The notes under the pieces: generated by a model
Databases searched by the model: none
What the model saw: the letters and a program-made list of their open reading frames with translations, nothing else
What the model was told of the DNA's origin: nothing
NCBI RefSeq assembly: GCF_900113615.1
Contig: NZ_FOPZ01000016.1
Location: forward strand, 1 to 64,000
Source of the DNA: Halorubrum aquaticum
GTDB taxonomy: Archaea; Halobacteriota; Halobacteria; Halobacteriales; Haloferacaceae
Length of the DNA: 64,000 nucleotides
Direction of reading: 5' to 3'
Shown: piece by piece, positions 18,132-56,282 of the stretch
How positions within the stretch are numbered: position 1 is the first letter of the stretch
How the letters are laid out: every line of letters begins with the position of its first letter
Translations under genes and position numbers: made by a program

Positions 18132-19436
18132 CTACGTCGGTCCGGTCGCCCCGGTCGCCCCGGTCGCTTCGGCCGCCACCGCGGCCAACAGGTCGTCGCC
18201 GTCGACGTCGTTCGGGACTCTCACGACCCGTTCGGCCGCGCTCGCGATCCGGAGGCGGTCGTCCTCGGACGGGTGGTCCTCCCCGGACGGGTGACCCTCC
18301 CCGAACTCGCCGACGACGACCGCGGCGTCGGCGCTCTCGGCCAGTTCGCGGGCGGCCGCCTGCGATTCGGCGTCGACCCCGGCGAAGGGCGGAACGGTGA
18401 CCGCGGGCACGTCCGCGTCGGCGGCGGCAACGGCCGCGGCGTCGCCCTCGGGAACGACGCCGAGGGAGACCTCGTGACCGGCGGCCACGAGCCGCGCCAC
18501 GACCCGCGCCGCGTCGGGCCCGGTCCCGACCACGTGGAGCCGGAGGGGGTCGACGGCCGACCGGGGGAAGGCGGTGACCGCGGGGGTTCCGGTCGCCGGG
18601 TTCCGACCGACGAACGCCTCCGCGTCGAACGCGCCGGCGACCGCTGACGCGTCCAGCACCTCCGCGGGCGGCCCGTCGGCGCGGACCCGCCCGTCCGCGA
18701 GGACGACGATCCGGTCGCAGAAGCGGGCCGCCATGTCGAGGTCGTGGATCGCCGCGACCGCCGCTCGGCCGCCGTCGACGACGTCGCGGACCAGCTCCAT
18801 CGTCGCCACGGCGTGGTTCACGTCGAGGCTCGCGGTGGGTTCGTCGAGCAACAGGGTCGGCGTCTCCTGTGCCAGCGCCCGCGCGAGGAGGACGCGCTGG
18901 CGCTCGCCGCCCGACACCTCGGTTATCGACCGGTCGGCGAACCGCTCGACGCCCGCGGCCGCCATGGCCTCCTCGACCGCGGCCGTGTCCTCCGCGTCAC
19001 GACCGTCGAACCGCCCGAGGTACGGGGTCCGACCCATCTCGACGACGTGCCGAACCGGGAAGTCGAAGGAGAGGCCGGTGTCCTGTGGGACGCTCGCCAC
19101 CCGGCGGGCGACCTCGCGGGCGGACAGCCCGGCCATCGGGTCGCCATCGAGGCGCACGGTCCCCCCGTCGGCCTCGATCGCTCCCGTTATCGCCCGGAGC
19201 ACGGTCGTCTTTCCCGCGCCGTTCGGGCCGACGAGGCCGACGAGCGTCCCCGGCTCGACGGCCAGATCGACCTCGTCAACCGCCTCGAGGTCGCCGAAGG
19301 AGACGGACAGGTCACGGACGGACACGAGCGGGCCGTCGGGGGGCGAGCGGTCGACGTCGCCGGACGACGAGCGGTCGATGTCCCCGACGGCAGCACCGGT
19401 GTCGACGGCGGCATCGACGGCGGCGTCGCGACTCAC
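18132..19436 (-). CDS. btuD: Cobalamin ABC transporter ATPase with C-terminal extension
   Basis: 434 residues from a GTG at 19436. Walker A GPNGAGKTT, Q-loop VPQDTG, signature EVSGGERQR and Walker B TLLLDEPTASLD are intact. The ATPase ends near residue 290. The remaining ~150 residues form a second, Ala/Val/Asp-rich Rossmann-like domain (RLHVVGTGPDAARVVARL), seen in haloarchaeal BtuD proteins and of unknown role. The GTG start overlaps the btuC stop (GTGA), so translation is coupled. Supplies energy for vitamin B12 uptake with BtuC and BtuF. Confidence 0.9.
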   Translation of the reverse strand: MSRDAAVDAAVDTGAAVGDIDRSSSGDVDRSPPDGPLVSVRDLSVSFGDLEAVDEVDLAVEPGTLVGLVGPNGAGKTTVLRAITGAIEADGGTVRLDGDPMAGLSAREVARRVASVPQDTGLSFDFPVRHVVEMGRTPYLGRFDGRDAEDTAAVEEAMAAAGVERFADRSITEVSGGERQRVLLARALAQETPTLLLDEPTASLDVNHAVATMELVRDVVDGGRAAVAAIHDLDMAARFCDRIVVLADGRVRADGPPAEVLDASAVAGAFDAEAFVGRNPATGTPAVTAFPRSAVDPLRLHVVGTGPDAARVVARLVAAGHEVSLGVVPEGDAAAVAAADADVPAVTVPPFAGVDAESQAAARELAESADAAVVVGEFGEGHPSGEDHPSEDDRLRIASAAERVVRVPNDVDGDDLLAAVAAEATGATGATGPT

Positions 19437-20575
19437 AGCTCGTACACCTCGCGGTTCACCAGCAGGTAGACGAAGAAGGGCGCGCCGACGGCCGCGGTGA
19501 CGACGCCGACAGGCAGCTCGGCCGTCCCGGATCGGGCGGCGGTGTCGGCGGCGACGAGGAACGCCCCGCCCGAGAGCGCCGCGGTCGGGAGCAGCACCCG
19601 GTGGTCGGGACCGACGACGAGCCGGAGCATGTGCGGGACGATCAGGCCCACGAACCCGATGACCCCCGCGAACGCGACGCCCGCGGCCGTGATCAGCGCG
19701 CTCGTCGCGAGCAGGACCCGCTTCGTGCGCTCGACGTCGATCCCGAGCCCGCGGGCCTCCTCCTCGCCGAGCAGCAGGACGTTGAGGTCGCGGGCGTACG
19801 CGAGGAGCACCGCGAAAAGCGGCGGGACGACGAGCGCCGCGATCGCGACCTCGCTCCAGGCGGCCCCCGAGAGGTGGCCCATCAGCCACGCGACGATCCG
19901 CCGGAGCGACTCGCCCGCCCGCAACTGGAGGTACGAGATGACCGCGCCGAGGAACGTCTGGACGGCCACCCCCGCCAGAAGCAGCGTCGCGACCGGCGTC
20001 CGGCCGTGTCGCGTCGCGATGGCGTACACGCCGAAGGCGGCGAGCAGCGCGCCGATGAACGCGAACAGGCTCACGCCGGCCCCGTAGGAGAGGCCGAGAT
20101 CGACCGCGCCGAGAAGCGGGAGCGTCAGCGTCGTCGACAGCGCGACCGGGAAGACGATGAACGCGACCGCGCCGACGGCCGCGCCCGAGGAGACGCCGAT
20201 GATCGAGGGGTCGGCCATCGGGTTCCGGAAGAAGCCCTGCATGACGGTGCCCGCGGCCGCGAGCGAGAACCCCACGAGCGCCGCGAGCAGGATCCGCGGA
20301 AGCCTGACGAGCAGCACGATCCGGCGATGGACGTCGTCGACGGGGAACGCGAAGGGCGACCGATAGGCGAACTCGACGCCCGGCAGGGCGATCGGTCCCG
20401 CTCCCGCCGCGCCGAACTCCACTCCGGCGGGCACGACCGCCGCGTTCAGGACGACCTTCAGCACCTCCGCGGGGGGGATCCGAACCGGCCCGATACCCGC
20501 GCTGACGACGACCACGCCAGCCAGCGCGGCCGCTAACGCGGTCGACCACGCCACGGCCCGACGCCGGACTCGCAT
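19433..20575 (-). CDS. btuC: Cobalamin ABC transporter permease
   Basis: 380 residues from the ATG at 20575 (MRVRRRAVAWSTALA). FecCD/BtuC family with about ten membrane helices; family motifs include RLPRILLAALVGFSLAAAGTVMQG and GFVGLIVPHMLRLVVGPDHR. Forms the membrane channel with BtuD. It is divergent from btuF across a 62-base AT-rich promoter region. The longer N-terminal frame is basic and is rejected. Confidence 0.92.
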   Translation of the reverse strand: MRVRRRAVAWSTALAAALAGVVVVSAGIGPVRIPPAEVLKVVLNAAVVPAGVEFGAAGAGPIALPGVEFAYRSPFAFPVDDVHRRIVLLVRLPRILLAALVGFSLAAAGTVMQGFFRNPMADPSIIGVSSGAAVGAVAFIVFPVALSTTLTLPLLGAVDLGLSYGAGVSLFAFIGALLAAFGVYAIATRHGRTPVATLLLAGVAVQTFLGAVISYLQLRAGESLRRIVAWLMGHLSGAAWSEVAIAALVVPPLFAVLLAYARDLNVLLLGEEEARGLGIDVERTKRVLLATSALITAAGVAFAGVIGFVGLIVPHMLRLVVGPDHRVLLPTAALSGGAFLVAADTAARSGTAELPVGVVTAAVGAPFFVYLLVNREVYEL

Positions 20576-20602
20576 TCGATAGGCAACAAAACTTGTAGTA
20601 GG

Positions 20603-20613
20603 TAAATACTTAT
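20603..20613 (+). promoter_or_regulatory. TATA-like element in btuF/btuCD divergent promoter
   Basis: TAAATACTTA lies about 28 bases before the btuF ATG, inside the short AT-rich gap between btuC and btuF. No cobalamin-riboswitch box was seen. Confidence 0.5.
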
Positions 20614-20637
20614 TGGACCAGGGGCGTCGATAGGTCG

Positions 20638-21753
20638 ATGCGAGACAGCTTCGTGATCGCGGTCGCCCTGCTCGTGACGACGGCCCTCGCGGGCGGCGTC
20701 GCCGGCGGGGCGGCGGGCGCACAGCCGACGGTCGAAACGGCGGATACGCCGGGCGTCCACCAGACTGGCCCCCACCAGACGGACGACGCCGAGTGTTCGT
20801 TCCCGCTCACCGTGACCGACGCCACGGGGGAGGAGATCACCCTCGAGGAGCCGCCGGAGCGGATCACGACGACGAACCCCTCGGCCGCACAGACGCTGTG
20901 GGAGATCGGCGCGCGCGACCGCGTCGTCGGCGTGACCCAGTACGCGGCGTACCTCGACGGGGCGGGAGGGAAGACGAACGTCTCCGCGGAGGGACTCGGC
21001 GTCAGCGTCGAGCGCGTCGTCGGCACCGAGCCCGACCTCGTGTTGGCTCCAAACGCCTCCGCGGACCAGGTCGAGGCGCTTCGGAACGCCGACCTCACCG
21101 TCTACCACTTCCCCGAGGCGACCGGCGTGGAGGACATCGCCGGGAAGACCGAGACGGTCGGCCGGCTCGTCGGCGAGTGTGACGCCGCCGCCGAGACGAA
21201 CGAGGAGATGACGACCGCGGTCGAGGAGACCCGCGAGCGAACCGCGGACATCGATCGACCGGCCGCGCTCTACCCGCTGGGGAGCGGGTTCGTCGCCGCC
21301 GGCGACACGTTCATCGACGAACTAATGACGATCGGCGGGGTCGAGAACGTCGCCGCCGCCGAACACGAAGGGTACCCGCAGCTCTCCGCCGAGGTCGTCC
21401 TCGAGATGGACCCCGAACTCGTCCTCGTCAACGAGCCGGACGCGCCGATCATGGACGAGGAGCCGTACGCGAGCACGACCGCCGGGCTGGAGGGGAACGC
21501 GGTCGTGGTCGAGGTCCAGTGGCTGAACCAGCCCGCCCCGCGGAGCGTGATCGAGGCGACCGCGACTATCGCGGACGCGGTCGAGGAGTACGACGCGGCA
21601 CAGGAGGTGGAGGACGGTGACGCGAGCGACGACGAGTCGACCGCGGACGACTCGTCGGGAACCGGCGAGGAGGCTCCGGGGTTCGGCGTCGTCGCCGCGG
21701 TCCTCGCCGTGCTCGCGACGCTCGCGGTCGGCGTGAGCGCGCGGCGACCGTAG
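20638..21753 (+). CDS. btuF: Cobalamin-binding protein with PGF-CTERM anchor
   Basis: 371 residues. A signal peptide at 1-28 is followed by a BtuF/FecB-type fold (ERITTTNPSAAQTLWEIGARDRVVGVTQYAAYL; DLVLAPNASADQVEAL), then an Asp/Ser-rich stalk. A C-terminal PGF motif comes next (EEAPGFGVVAAVLAVLATLA), with a transmembrane segment and terminal arginines: a PGF-CTERM signal, cleaved and lipid-anchored by archaeosortase A in haloarchaea. It hands cobalamin to BtuCD encoded divergently. Confidence 0.9.
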   Translation: MRDSFVIAVALLVTTALAGGVAGGAAGAQPTVETADTPGVHQTGPHQTDDAECSFPLTVTDATGEEITLEEPPERITTTNPSAAQTLWEIGARDRVVGVTQYAAYLDGAGGKTNVSAEGLGVSVERVVGTEPDLVLAPNASADQVEALRNADLTVYHFPEATGVEDIAGKTETVGRLVGECDAAAETNEEMTTAVEETRERTADIDRPAALYPLGSGFVAAGDTFIDELMTIGGVENVAAAEHEGYPQLSAEVVLEMDPELVLVNEPDAPIMDEEPYASTTAGLEGNAVVVEVQWLNQPAPRSVIEATATIADAVEEYDAAQEVEDGDASDDESTADDSSGTGEEAPGFGVVAAVLAVLATLAVGVSARRP

Positions 21754-21789: not shown

Positions 21790-23010
21790 TCAGATCCCCT
21801 GTCCCATCAGGTGGCTGCGCAACACGTCGGGCGTCTTGAGCCCGGCGTCGGTGTTGAGGAGGACGACCGTCTCCTCGCCGTCGAAGTAGCCCTCCTCGGC
21901 GAGTTCCCACGCGCCCGCGGGCGCCGCGCCGCCCGCCGCGCCCATCTCTATCACCTCGTTCTGGGCGACGGCGACCGCGCTCGCGAGGACGTCCTCGTCG
22001 TCCGCGGTCGTCGCCGTCCCGCCGCTCTCCACGACGGCCTCGACGGCCTCGCGGCCGCCCGCGGGGTCGGGAACCTCGAGTTCGCCGCAGATGGTGTCCG
22101 GCGTCGACCACGGCTCCGGCTCGTCGAGCCCGCGGTCGATCGCCGCCGCGATCGGGGCACAGCCGCTCGCTTGAGCCGCGACCAACCGGGGGACCGCCTC
22201 GATCGCGCCGATCCGGGCCAGCTCGGCGAAGCCCTTGTACACGCCGGCGAGCACCTCGCCGGTGCCCGTCGGGACGACGACGGCGTCGGGCGCGCCGCCG
22301 AGGTCGGCGACCAACTCGAACGCGACCGTCTTGATCCCCTCGTGGCGGTAGGGGGTCGCGAACTCGTTGAGGTCGGTGTAGTCGGTCTCCAGTTGGTCGT
22401 CGACGGCGGCGGCCGCGTCGGGGTAGCGCCCGCCGACGACCCGCATGTCGCCACCGTGGACGTTCGTCATCGCCTTGTTCGAGAACGCACACCGCGAGGG
22501 GACGAACGCGTACGAGCGCAGGCCCGCCCGCCCGGCGTACGCCGCCATCGACTGCCCGGCGTTGCCGGGGCTCGCACACGCGAGCGGCTCCACGTCGCGG
22601 TCGTCGGCGACCGCCGCGACCGCGGTCATCGCGACGGAGAGTCCACGGTCGAGGACGGTCCCCGTCGGGTTTCGGCCCTCGTCCTTGACGTACACGTTCG
22701 CGACGCCGAGCTCGTCGGCCAGCCGCTCGGTCGGAACGAGCGGCGTCGACCCCTCGCTGCCCGAGAGTCCGGTCGACGCGGGAAACGGCAGGAGCGCGTC
22801 GTACCGCCAGTGACCCGCCGCGGGGGGCTCGGCGGCGTCGACTCCATCCCCATCGCCCGCATCGAGGAGGGTCTCGGGGTCGATCGCGTCGTAGTCGTAG
22901 GTCGCCTCGACGTGGCCCGTCTCGTCCGGGAGTTCCGCCGGGTTCGCCGTCTCGTACACCCGACCGGACGCGCGACTCTCCAGCCCGCGGAACGTCTCCG
23001 TCGTCTCCAT
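21790..23010 (-). CDS. Threonine-synthase-like fold-type II protein lacking the PLP lysine
   Basis: 406 residues matching threonine synthase over most of the length: GSTPLVPTERLADELG, KDEGRNPTGT, ASPGNAGQSMAAYAG (phosphate/PLP loop) and VPTGTGEVLAGVYKGF. In active enzymes the segment after NPTG reads SFKDRG, whose lysine binds PLP. Here the codons ACC GTC CTC GAC CGT give TVLDRG, so the Schiff-base lysine is absent. It is therefore probably a paralogue with another role, not the cell's threonine synthase. Confidence 0.85.
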   Translation of the reverse strand: METTETFRGLESRASGRVYETANPAELPDETGHVEATYDYDAIDPETLLDAGDGDGVDAAEPPAAGHWRYDALLPFPASTGLSGSEGSTPLVPTERLADELGVANVYVKDEGRNPTGTVLDRGLSVAMTAVAAVADDRDVEPLACASPGNAGQSMAAYAGRAGLRSYAFVPSRCAFSNKAMTNVHGGDMRVVGGRYPDAAAAVDDQLETDYTDLNEFATPYRHEGIKTVAFELVADLGGAPDAVVVPTGTGEVLAGVYKGFAELARIGAIEAVPRLVAAQASGCAPIAAAIDRGLDEPEPWSTPDTICGELEVPDPAGGREAVEAVVESGGTATTADDEDVLASAVAVAQNEVIEMGAAGGAAPAGAWELAEEGYFDGEETVVLLNTDAGLKTPDVLRSHLMGQGI

Positions 23011-55157: not shown

Positions 55158-56138
55158 TCAGCCCTCCCACTCCTCGAAGTCGCGATAGACGCCCTTCGAG
55201 AGGTAGCGCTCCGAGGAGTCCGCGAAGACGGTCACGACGTTCTCGTGGGGGGCGTCGACCTCGCCGTCGCGGATCCCGCGGGCGACCCGCTTCGCGGCGA
55301 GCGCGTTCGCGGCCGACGAGGAGGCGACGAGGTGGCCCTCCTCGCTCGCGAGCCGGGCCATCTCCTCGTGTACCTCGCGGTCGGGGATCGCGTGGATCTC
55401 GTCGACGAGGTCGGGATCGAACAGCTCGTTGGTCTCGACGTCGTGGGTGCCGATGCCCTCGGTCTTGTACTCCTCGTGGTCGACGTTCTCGCCGAAGAAC
55501 TCGCGGTAGGCGGAGCCGGCGGGCTCGACGGCGGCGACGTGGACGTCGGGGTGCCGCTCGCGGAAGTAGCGGGCCGTCCCCATCAGCGTCCCGGCGGTGC
55601 CACAGCCGGCGACGACGGCTCCCACCTCGCCGTCGAGGGCGTCGTCGATCTCGGGCGCGGTCGTCTCGTAGTGCGCCTCGGCGTTGAGCGGGTTCGAGAA
55701 CTGCTGGGGAACGACGGCACCGTCCAGTTCCTCGGCGATCTCGTGGGCGCGATCGATGGCGAATCCCATCCCGTCCTCGGTCGGCGTGTTGATCACGTCC
55801 GCGCCGAGCGCCCGCATCAGCTGTTGTTTCTCCACCGAGAACCGTTCGGGGACGACGAAGACGGCGTTCACGCCGAGCTGCTCGGCGGCGACCGCGATCC
55901 CGATGCCGGTGTTGCCGGCGGTCGGTTCGATCACCGTTCCCCCCGGCTCGAGGTCGCCGCGCTCGAGCATGCGTTCGAGCATGTACTTCCCGATGCGGTC
56001 CTTGATGCTCGCACCGGGGTTGAACGACTCGAGTTTCGCGTACACCGGCGCCGCGTCCGGGGAGTCGTGGACCCGGACGAGCGGCGTCTCGCCGATCGTC
56101 TCCAGCACGGACGGGAGGGGCTCGCGATGGGTGGTCAT
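55158..56138 (-). CDS. Cysteine synthase / cystathionine beta-synthase type PLP enzyme
   Basis: 326 residues from the ATG at 56138 (MTTHREPLPSVLETIGETPL). The PLP lysine lies in NPGASIKDRIGKYML, the phosphate loop in EPTAGNTGIGIAVAAE and the GCGTAGTLMG segment. Fold type II, CysK/CBS-like: O-acetylserine or serine sulfhydrylation in cysteine synthesis, with the exact sulfur donor unclear. It keeps the catalytic lysine, unlike the threonine-synthase paralogue at 21790. Confidence 0.92.
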   Translation of the reverse strand: MTTHREPLPSVLETIGETPLVRVHDSPDAAPVYAKLESFNPGASIKDRIGKYMLERMLERGDLEPGGTVIEPTAGNTGIGIAVAAEQLGVNAVFVVPERFSVEKQQLMRALGADVINTPTEDGMGFAIDRAHEIAEELDGAVVPQQFSNPLNAEAHYETTAPEIDDALDGEVGAVVAGCGTAGTLMGTARYFRERHPDVHVAAVEPAGSAYREFFGENVDHEEYKTEGIGTHDVETNELFDPDLVDEIHAIPDREVHEEMARLASEEGHLVASSSAANALAAKRVARGIRDGEVDAPHENVVTVFADSSERYLSKGVYRDFEEWEG

Positions 56139-56282
56139 GTAGGGGCAAGGGTTGCCGGTCGGTTTGTGTGTTTCCATCGGCGGGATGCGTGTTAGGGTAC
56201 GGGTCCAGCGGCCCGCGGTCCGGCCGTCACGATCCGCGCGGATCGAACAACACTTATGCCGCTCGTCCGGCTTTCCGAGGGT

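Follow-up and report, generated by a model that had tools for sequence, protein, structure and literature searches.

A Haloarchaeal Threonine Synthase-Like Protein without the PLP Lysine Is Probably a Recurrently Evolved Pseudoenzyme

Introduction

What a threonine synthase-like protein could be doing without the lysine that binds PLP is the question raised by one gene of Halorubrum aquaticum. The gene lies in a 64,000-nucleotide stretch of contig NZ_FOPZ01000016.1, here called the window, and an earlier note on this DNA took its product to be either a pseudoenzyme or an enzyme with a relocated lysine. Here, we argue, with a probability of roughly 0.7, that the protein belongs to a haloarchaeal fold-type-II pseudoenzyme that has evolved recurrently and whose retained role would rest on a C-terminal tail and a ligand pocket, not on PLP-lysine chemistry.

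Results

The window protein lacks the PLP lysine, as do its close orthologues. That TVLDRG replaces the SFKDRG of threonine synthase (ThrC) had been claimed in the earlier note, and codons, alignment, and orthologues all confirm it (Table 1). Read directly, the codons for residues 118 to 123 are ACC GTC CTC GAC CGT GGA, and alignment places Leu120 at the PLP-lysine position of Thermus thermophilus ThrC, Lys61. The 44 close orthologues found, which come from Haloferacaceae and one unclassified archaeon and are 55 to 92% identical to the window protein, all lack the lysine at position 120, their motifs being L, F, Y, H, or A-L variants. We reject an error of sequencing or assembly at Leu120 because a lysine codon is three base changes away from CTC and because 44/44 close orthologues are without lysine. 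The alignment of homologues that the earlier note proposed gave the same answer, in that the lysine-bearing homologues were only about 50% identical to the window protein and every close one was without lysine.

Table 1. Features of the threonine synthase-like gene in the window
Feature	Position	Strand	Basis
Threonine synthase-like gene, 406 aa plus stop	21790..23010	minus	Intact ORF, ATG to TGA; PF00291; ThrC fold; 44 close orthologues
TVLDRG where ThrC has SFKDRG; Leu120 codon CTC at 22651-22653	22642..22659	minus	Sequence; Leu120 aligned with Lys61 of T. thermophilus ThrC
Phosphate-loop segment TGTGEV, aa 248-253, including Glu252; TGGGVG in lysine-bearing relatives	22252..22269	minus	Alignment
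C-terminal tail LRSHLMGQGI, aa 397-406; the family's best-conserved stretch	21793..21822	minus	Kept in 201/220 members

In fold, the window protein resembles ThrC (EC 4.2.3.1; TIGR00260, NCBIfam PRK08197; T. thermophilus 1uim/1v7c). The fold-type-II PLP-enzyme fold is present by a PF00291 match (E = 1.4e-62), and the AlphaFold model (pLDDT, 91.5; pTM, 0.92) superposes on ThrC structures with a Z of about 45 (2c2b, 1v7c). Identity to T. thermophilus ThrC is about 35%, and the pocket residues Thr116, Asp121-Arg122, Lys179, and Arg222 align. The best curated name is threonine synthase, yet the scores fall below the equivalog cutoffs (260.4 versus 303 bits for PRK08197 and 129.6 versus 167.1 for TIGR00260). 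Moreover, unlike ThrC, the window protein has no PLP lysine, carries an additional C-terminal tail, and has a changed phosphate loop, PTGTGEV, where ThrC reads PVGNAGN and lysine-bearing relatives read PTGGGVG. The earlier note had asked whether a canonical thrC exists elsewhere, and one does: the same genome encodes L069 (TIGR00260, 292.9 bits) and further paralogues, so the window gene is probably not needed as a threonine synthase.

The gene is nearly universal among the sampled haloarchaeal genera. The motif RNPTGxxxDRG matched in 288 of 392 Halobacteriales genomes, a family member was still present in 19 of 21 genomes picked for having no such motif, and sampling by genus found members in 25/25 and 27/30 genomes. 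Lysine is absent from 126 of the 220 members collected, with 14 different residues in its place. In trees built with the lysine columns masked, well-supported branches force at least five changes between presence and absence of the lysine, a count that by itself cannot separate loss from regain. The deep branching of these trees is uncertain, as lysine-less sequences are long-branched and the two trees disagree in their deepest splits; genes may also have been replaced by transfer. Both states occur inside Natronorubrum (L047 versus L044 and L064) and inside the coded genera g78, g44, and g25. We infer that the direction of change was loss, since lysine is present in the outgroup ThrC and the remainder of the PLP site decays alongside.

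Lysine-less proteins often appear to be the orthologue in place rather than stray paralogues, because their gene order matches that of lysine-bearing copies. Lysine-bearing L041 (Halobacterium bonnevillei) and lysine-less L036, L039, and L140 have in common a divergent FAD-dependent oxidoreductase gene upstream and DtxR-like, GDT1-like, and LysE-like genes downstream, and in Natrialbaceae copies of both states adjoin LSm-like and L37e-like genes, these neighbor names being readings of the sequences and not results of family searches. Besides gene order, lysine-bearing orthologues such as L041 have in common with the lysine-less ones about 50% identity, the tail, and the conserved positions, and differ from the window protein in keeping the lysine and an intact PLP site. 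The flanks of the window gene itself are different: one side carries a BtuF/BtuC/ATPase-like transport cluster and the other a halocyanin-like gene, names likewise read from the sequences. Prediction of function from neighbors was dropped, as the recurring DtxR-like, GDT1-like, and LysE-like genes do not adjoin the window gene. The ABC transport cluster (window positions 18132-21753) lies directly downstream, as it does in Halorubrum relatives. Separately, in L115, L116, L117, and L118, the lysine-less gene is followed after 4 to 10 bases by the start of a LysE-like exporter gene of the same strand, which suggests an operon.

How far the PLP site has changed bears on whether PLP could still be used. 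The phosphate loop had been described in the earlier note as well kept, which is wrong: PTGGGVG is found in nearly all lysine-bearing members (92 to 94 of 94 per position), and the loop of lysine-less members is variable, often with a Glu. Of the 126 lysine-less members, 91 have an acidic residue at position 252 or 310, as against 1 of the 94 lysine-bearing ones. Columns at or beside the PLP site are among those that differ most from lysine-bearing members: 250 and 253 of the phosphate loop, then 310, 151, and 387. Part of this decay may be general drift or relaxation, since lysine-less members are more divergent overall (mean identity of 54% versus 69% among lysine-bearing members). Two tailed copies, L168 and L169 (in G206 and G203, respectively), keep the lysine in a TVKDRG motif, yet position 150 is Asp, the phosphate loop is altered, and Lys226 is missing, which looks as though decay of the site came before loss of the lysine there.

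Noncovalent binding of PLP by lysine-less members is possible, as Asn150 and Thr/Ser387 of the PLP site remain common among them (92/126 and 83/126, respectively). In a lysine-independent PLP protein, PLP would be bound to an amino acid as an aldimine; either another base would catalyze or the protein would trap or sense PLP-amino-acid adducts. Lysine-less mutants of related enzymes have been engineered and crystallized, some with an external aldimine according to their titles (1d6s, K41A OASS with methionine; also 2tys and 3vc3), and the pocket residues Lys179 and Arg222 are conserved. In most lysine-less members, however, the PLP site has a Glu at 252, 310, or both, and the phosphate loop is changed; Asn150 is lost in 34/126, and Pro replaces Thr387 in 27. 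We consider a lysine-independent PLP protein rather improbable.

Conserved residues might instead support a new chemistry. Among 60 lysine-less representatives, each pair less than 75% identical, conservation reaches at least 97% at D121, R122, K179, R222, Q280, C284, P304, G309, and E312. Two of these, Lys179 and Arg222, correspond in the alignment to Lys116 and Arg160 of T. thermophilus ThrC, which we take to bind the phosphate of the substrate. A new enzyme of the same fold could have replaced PLP chemistry by a mechanism using residues such as Cys284, His185, and Glu312, all at least 98% conserved in the lysine-less representatives. The three are equally conserved in lysine-bearing tailed members, however, so nothing new appeared with the loss of the lysine. 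Moreover, there is no reaction that we can name, and we regard such an enzyme as quite improbable.

That the protein is an ordinary enzyme whose Schiff-base lysine has moved is very improbable. The window protein does have Lys109, Lys179, Lys227, and Lys392, but all four are conserved in lysine-bearing and lysine-less members alike, and no alignment column gains a lysine in the lysine-less members. Lys226, by contrast with these four, is lost together with Lys120. The relocated lysine put forward in the earlier note is therefore unsupported.

Lysine-less genes, many of which retain the ancestral gene order, are under purifying selection, with dN/dS values of 0.09 to 0.29 in lysine-less pairs and 0.08 to 0.18 in lysine-bearing pairs. 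An N-terminal four-cysteine zinc-ribbon-like motif, common to most family members, is absent from the window protein (coding part, 22876-22977) and from Halorubrum orthologues, and 37 lysine-less members have no cysteine within the first 45 residues. A decaying, functionless pseudogene could account for these missing cysteines and for the loss of the lysine and PLP-site residues, but it is barely credible and is rejected given the lack of internal stops in the genomes searched, the dN/dS values, the near-universal presence of the gene, and the near-invariant tail.

The C-terminal tail, which the earlier note did not remark on, is the most conserved element of the family. The tail, LRSHLM[GS]xG[IV], ends 124 of the 126 lysine-less proteins, and only two lysine-less members are without it. 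Position by position, the 201 tailed members have the Arg in 200, the Ser in 199, the Leu in 199, the Met in 199, the penultimate Gly in 200, and a last Ile or Val in 186. The motif coding for the tail was found once per genome in 34 of 59 genomes, and the places compared, including that in the window, are this gene. In the AlphaFold monomer model the tail is of low confidence, which, together with its fixed end and its conservation without catalysis, suggests a peptide that becomes ordered on binding. Strict covariation of tail and pocket was dropped as an idea: seven positions were clean in a first tail-less set made up mostly of one clade, and a second tail-less clade retains several of the seven, so that covariation is weak evidence.

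Catalytic site and tail look separable. There are 17 lysine-bearing copies without the tail, and 17/17 are in genomes holding a second, tailed copy; of those second copies, 12 are lysine-less, 3 are lysine bearing, and 2 (G004 and G021) were seen by coordinates and tail motif only. The window's genome is one of the 17, its tail-less copy being L068, which keeps the lysine. Conversely, 31 lysine-less genomes are without any lysine-bearing member of the subfamily, and obligate partnership with a lysine-bearing subfamily paralogue is thus rejected as a general rule. The coexistence of tail-less lysine-bearing copies with a tailed one, these 31 genomes, and the rarity of lysine-less members without a tail all point to separability, with the tailed copy as the one that persists. 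A separate lysine-bearing tail-less clade (L213, L229, and L231; NPTNTFKDRG) spans three families, and each genome also has a tailed copy.

Discussion

What the lysine-less proteins do is probably not threonine synthesis. As in other conserved pseudoenzymes, a key catalytic residue is absent across orthologues and the genes are under purifying selection, and we infer that the lysine-less proteins perform no PLP-lysine catalysis. Of the two readings in the earlier note, that of a pseudoenzyme agrees with recurrent loss of the lysine and no compensating one, with decay of the PLP site, with purifying selection on the genes, and with the presence of a separate canonical thrC, and that of a relocated lysine is not supported. 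In the lysine-less lineages, the protein is probably a nonenzymatic regulator or ligand binder.

How such a pseudoenzyme might have arisen can be sketched. Members of a haloarchaea-wide, threonine synthase-like fold-type-II subfamily may at first have had both PLP chemistry and a second role. Many lineages, among them all of the Haloferacaceae clade to which the window gene belongs, would have lost the lysine along with much else of the PLP site, leaving the protein to survive as a pseudoenzyme. Selection would then maintain the fold, the pocket residues Asp121-Arg122, Lys179, Arg222, and Glu312, and the near-invariant tail up to its free carboxyl end. We speculate that the tail is a binding element, its target probably a protein whose activity it regulates, and that a ligand occupying the former substrate pocket perhaps gates this binding. 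A more specific proposal is doubtful: that this is a haloarchaea-wide regulator, a tail-docking pseudoenzyme that has emerged several times through loss of PLP chemistry, detects a ligand of an amino acid pathway in the old pocket, and inserts its near-invariant GxG[IV] C terminus into another fold-type-II enzyme at the active site.

Two known systems are precedents for the proposed pseudoenzyme and are not evidence for it. CysE and CdiA-CT each insert a C-terminal Ile into CysK, and the C-terminal Ile of EGL-9 binds the CysK-like protein CYSL-1 (PMC5562914). The haloarchaeal tailed members likewise have a C-terminal Ile at a fixed chain end, a resemblance only, and the targets of CysE, CdiA-CT, and EGL-9 are of fold type II, as is the protein here. 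Here, however, the tail sits on the fold-type-II protein itself, and docking is speculative. In plants, a tryptophan synthase beta pseudoenzyme activates a partner protein (PMC12727527). That protein, too, belongs to the fold-type-II superfamily, has lost its activity, and acts via a partner, but it derives from tryptophan synthase beta and its partner, TSA, is known, whereas the partner here is putative and one gene has undergone the loss repeatedly across an order.

Proteins of this kind are readily named threonine synthase by sequence, yet if the pseudoenzyme reading is correct, the orthologue in many haloarchaeal lineages would be incapable of PLP-lysine chemistry. Repeated loss of a catalytic lysine in one gene, with the tail retained, would amount to a natural experiment that separates catalytic from noncatalytic selection, and a hidden second function of a metabolic-enzyme family would become testable in genetically tractable haloarchaea. 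On these haloarchaeal paralogues, we found nothing in the open literature besides H. volcanii thrC3 (HVO_2969), which may or may not belong to this family; a transposon in thrC3 causes auxotrophy that is rescued by Gly, Ser, and Thr together (PMC4300041). Finally, the window contains a second fold-type-II gene (55158-56177, minus strand), which is cysteine synthase-like and has an apparently normal lysine motif, SIKDR.
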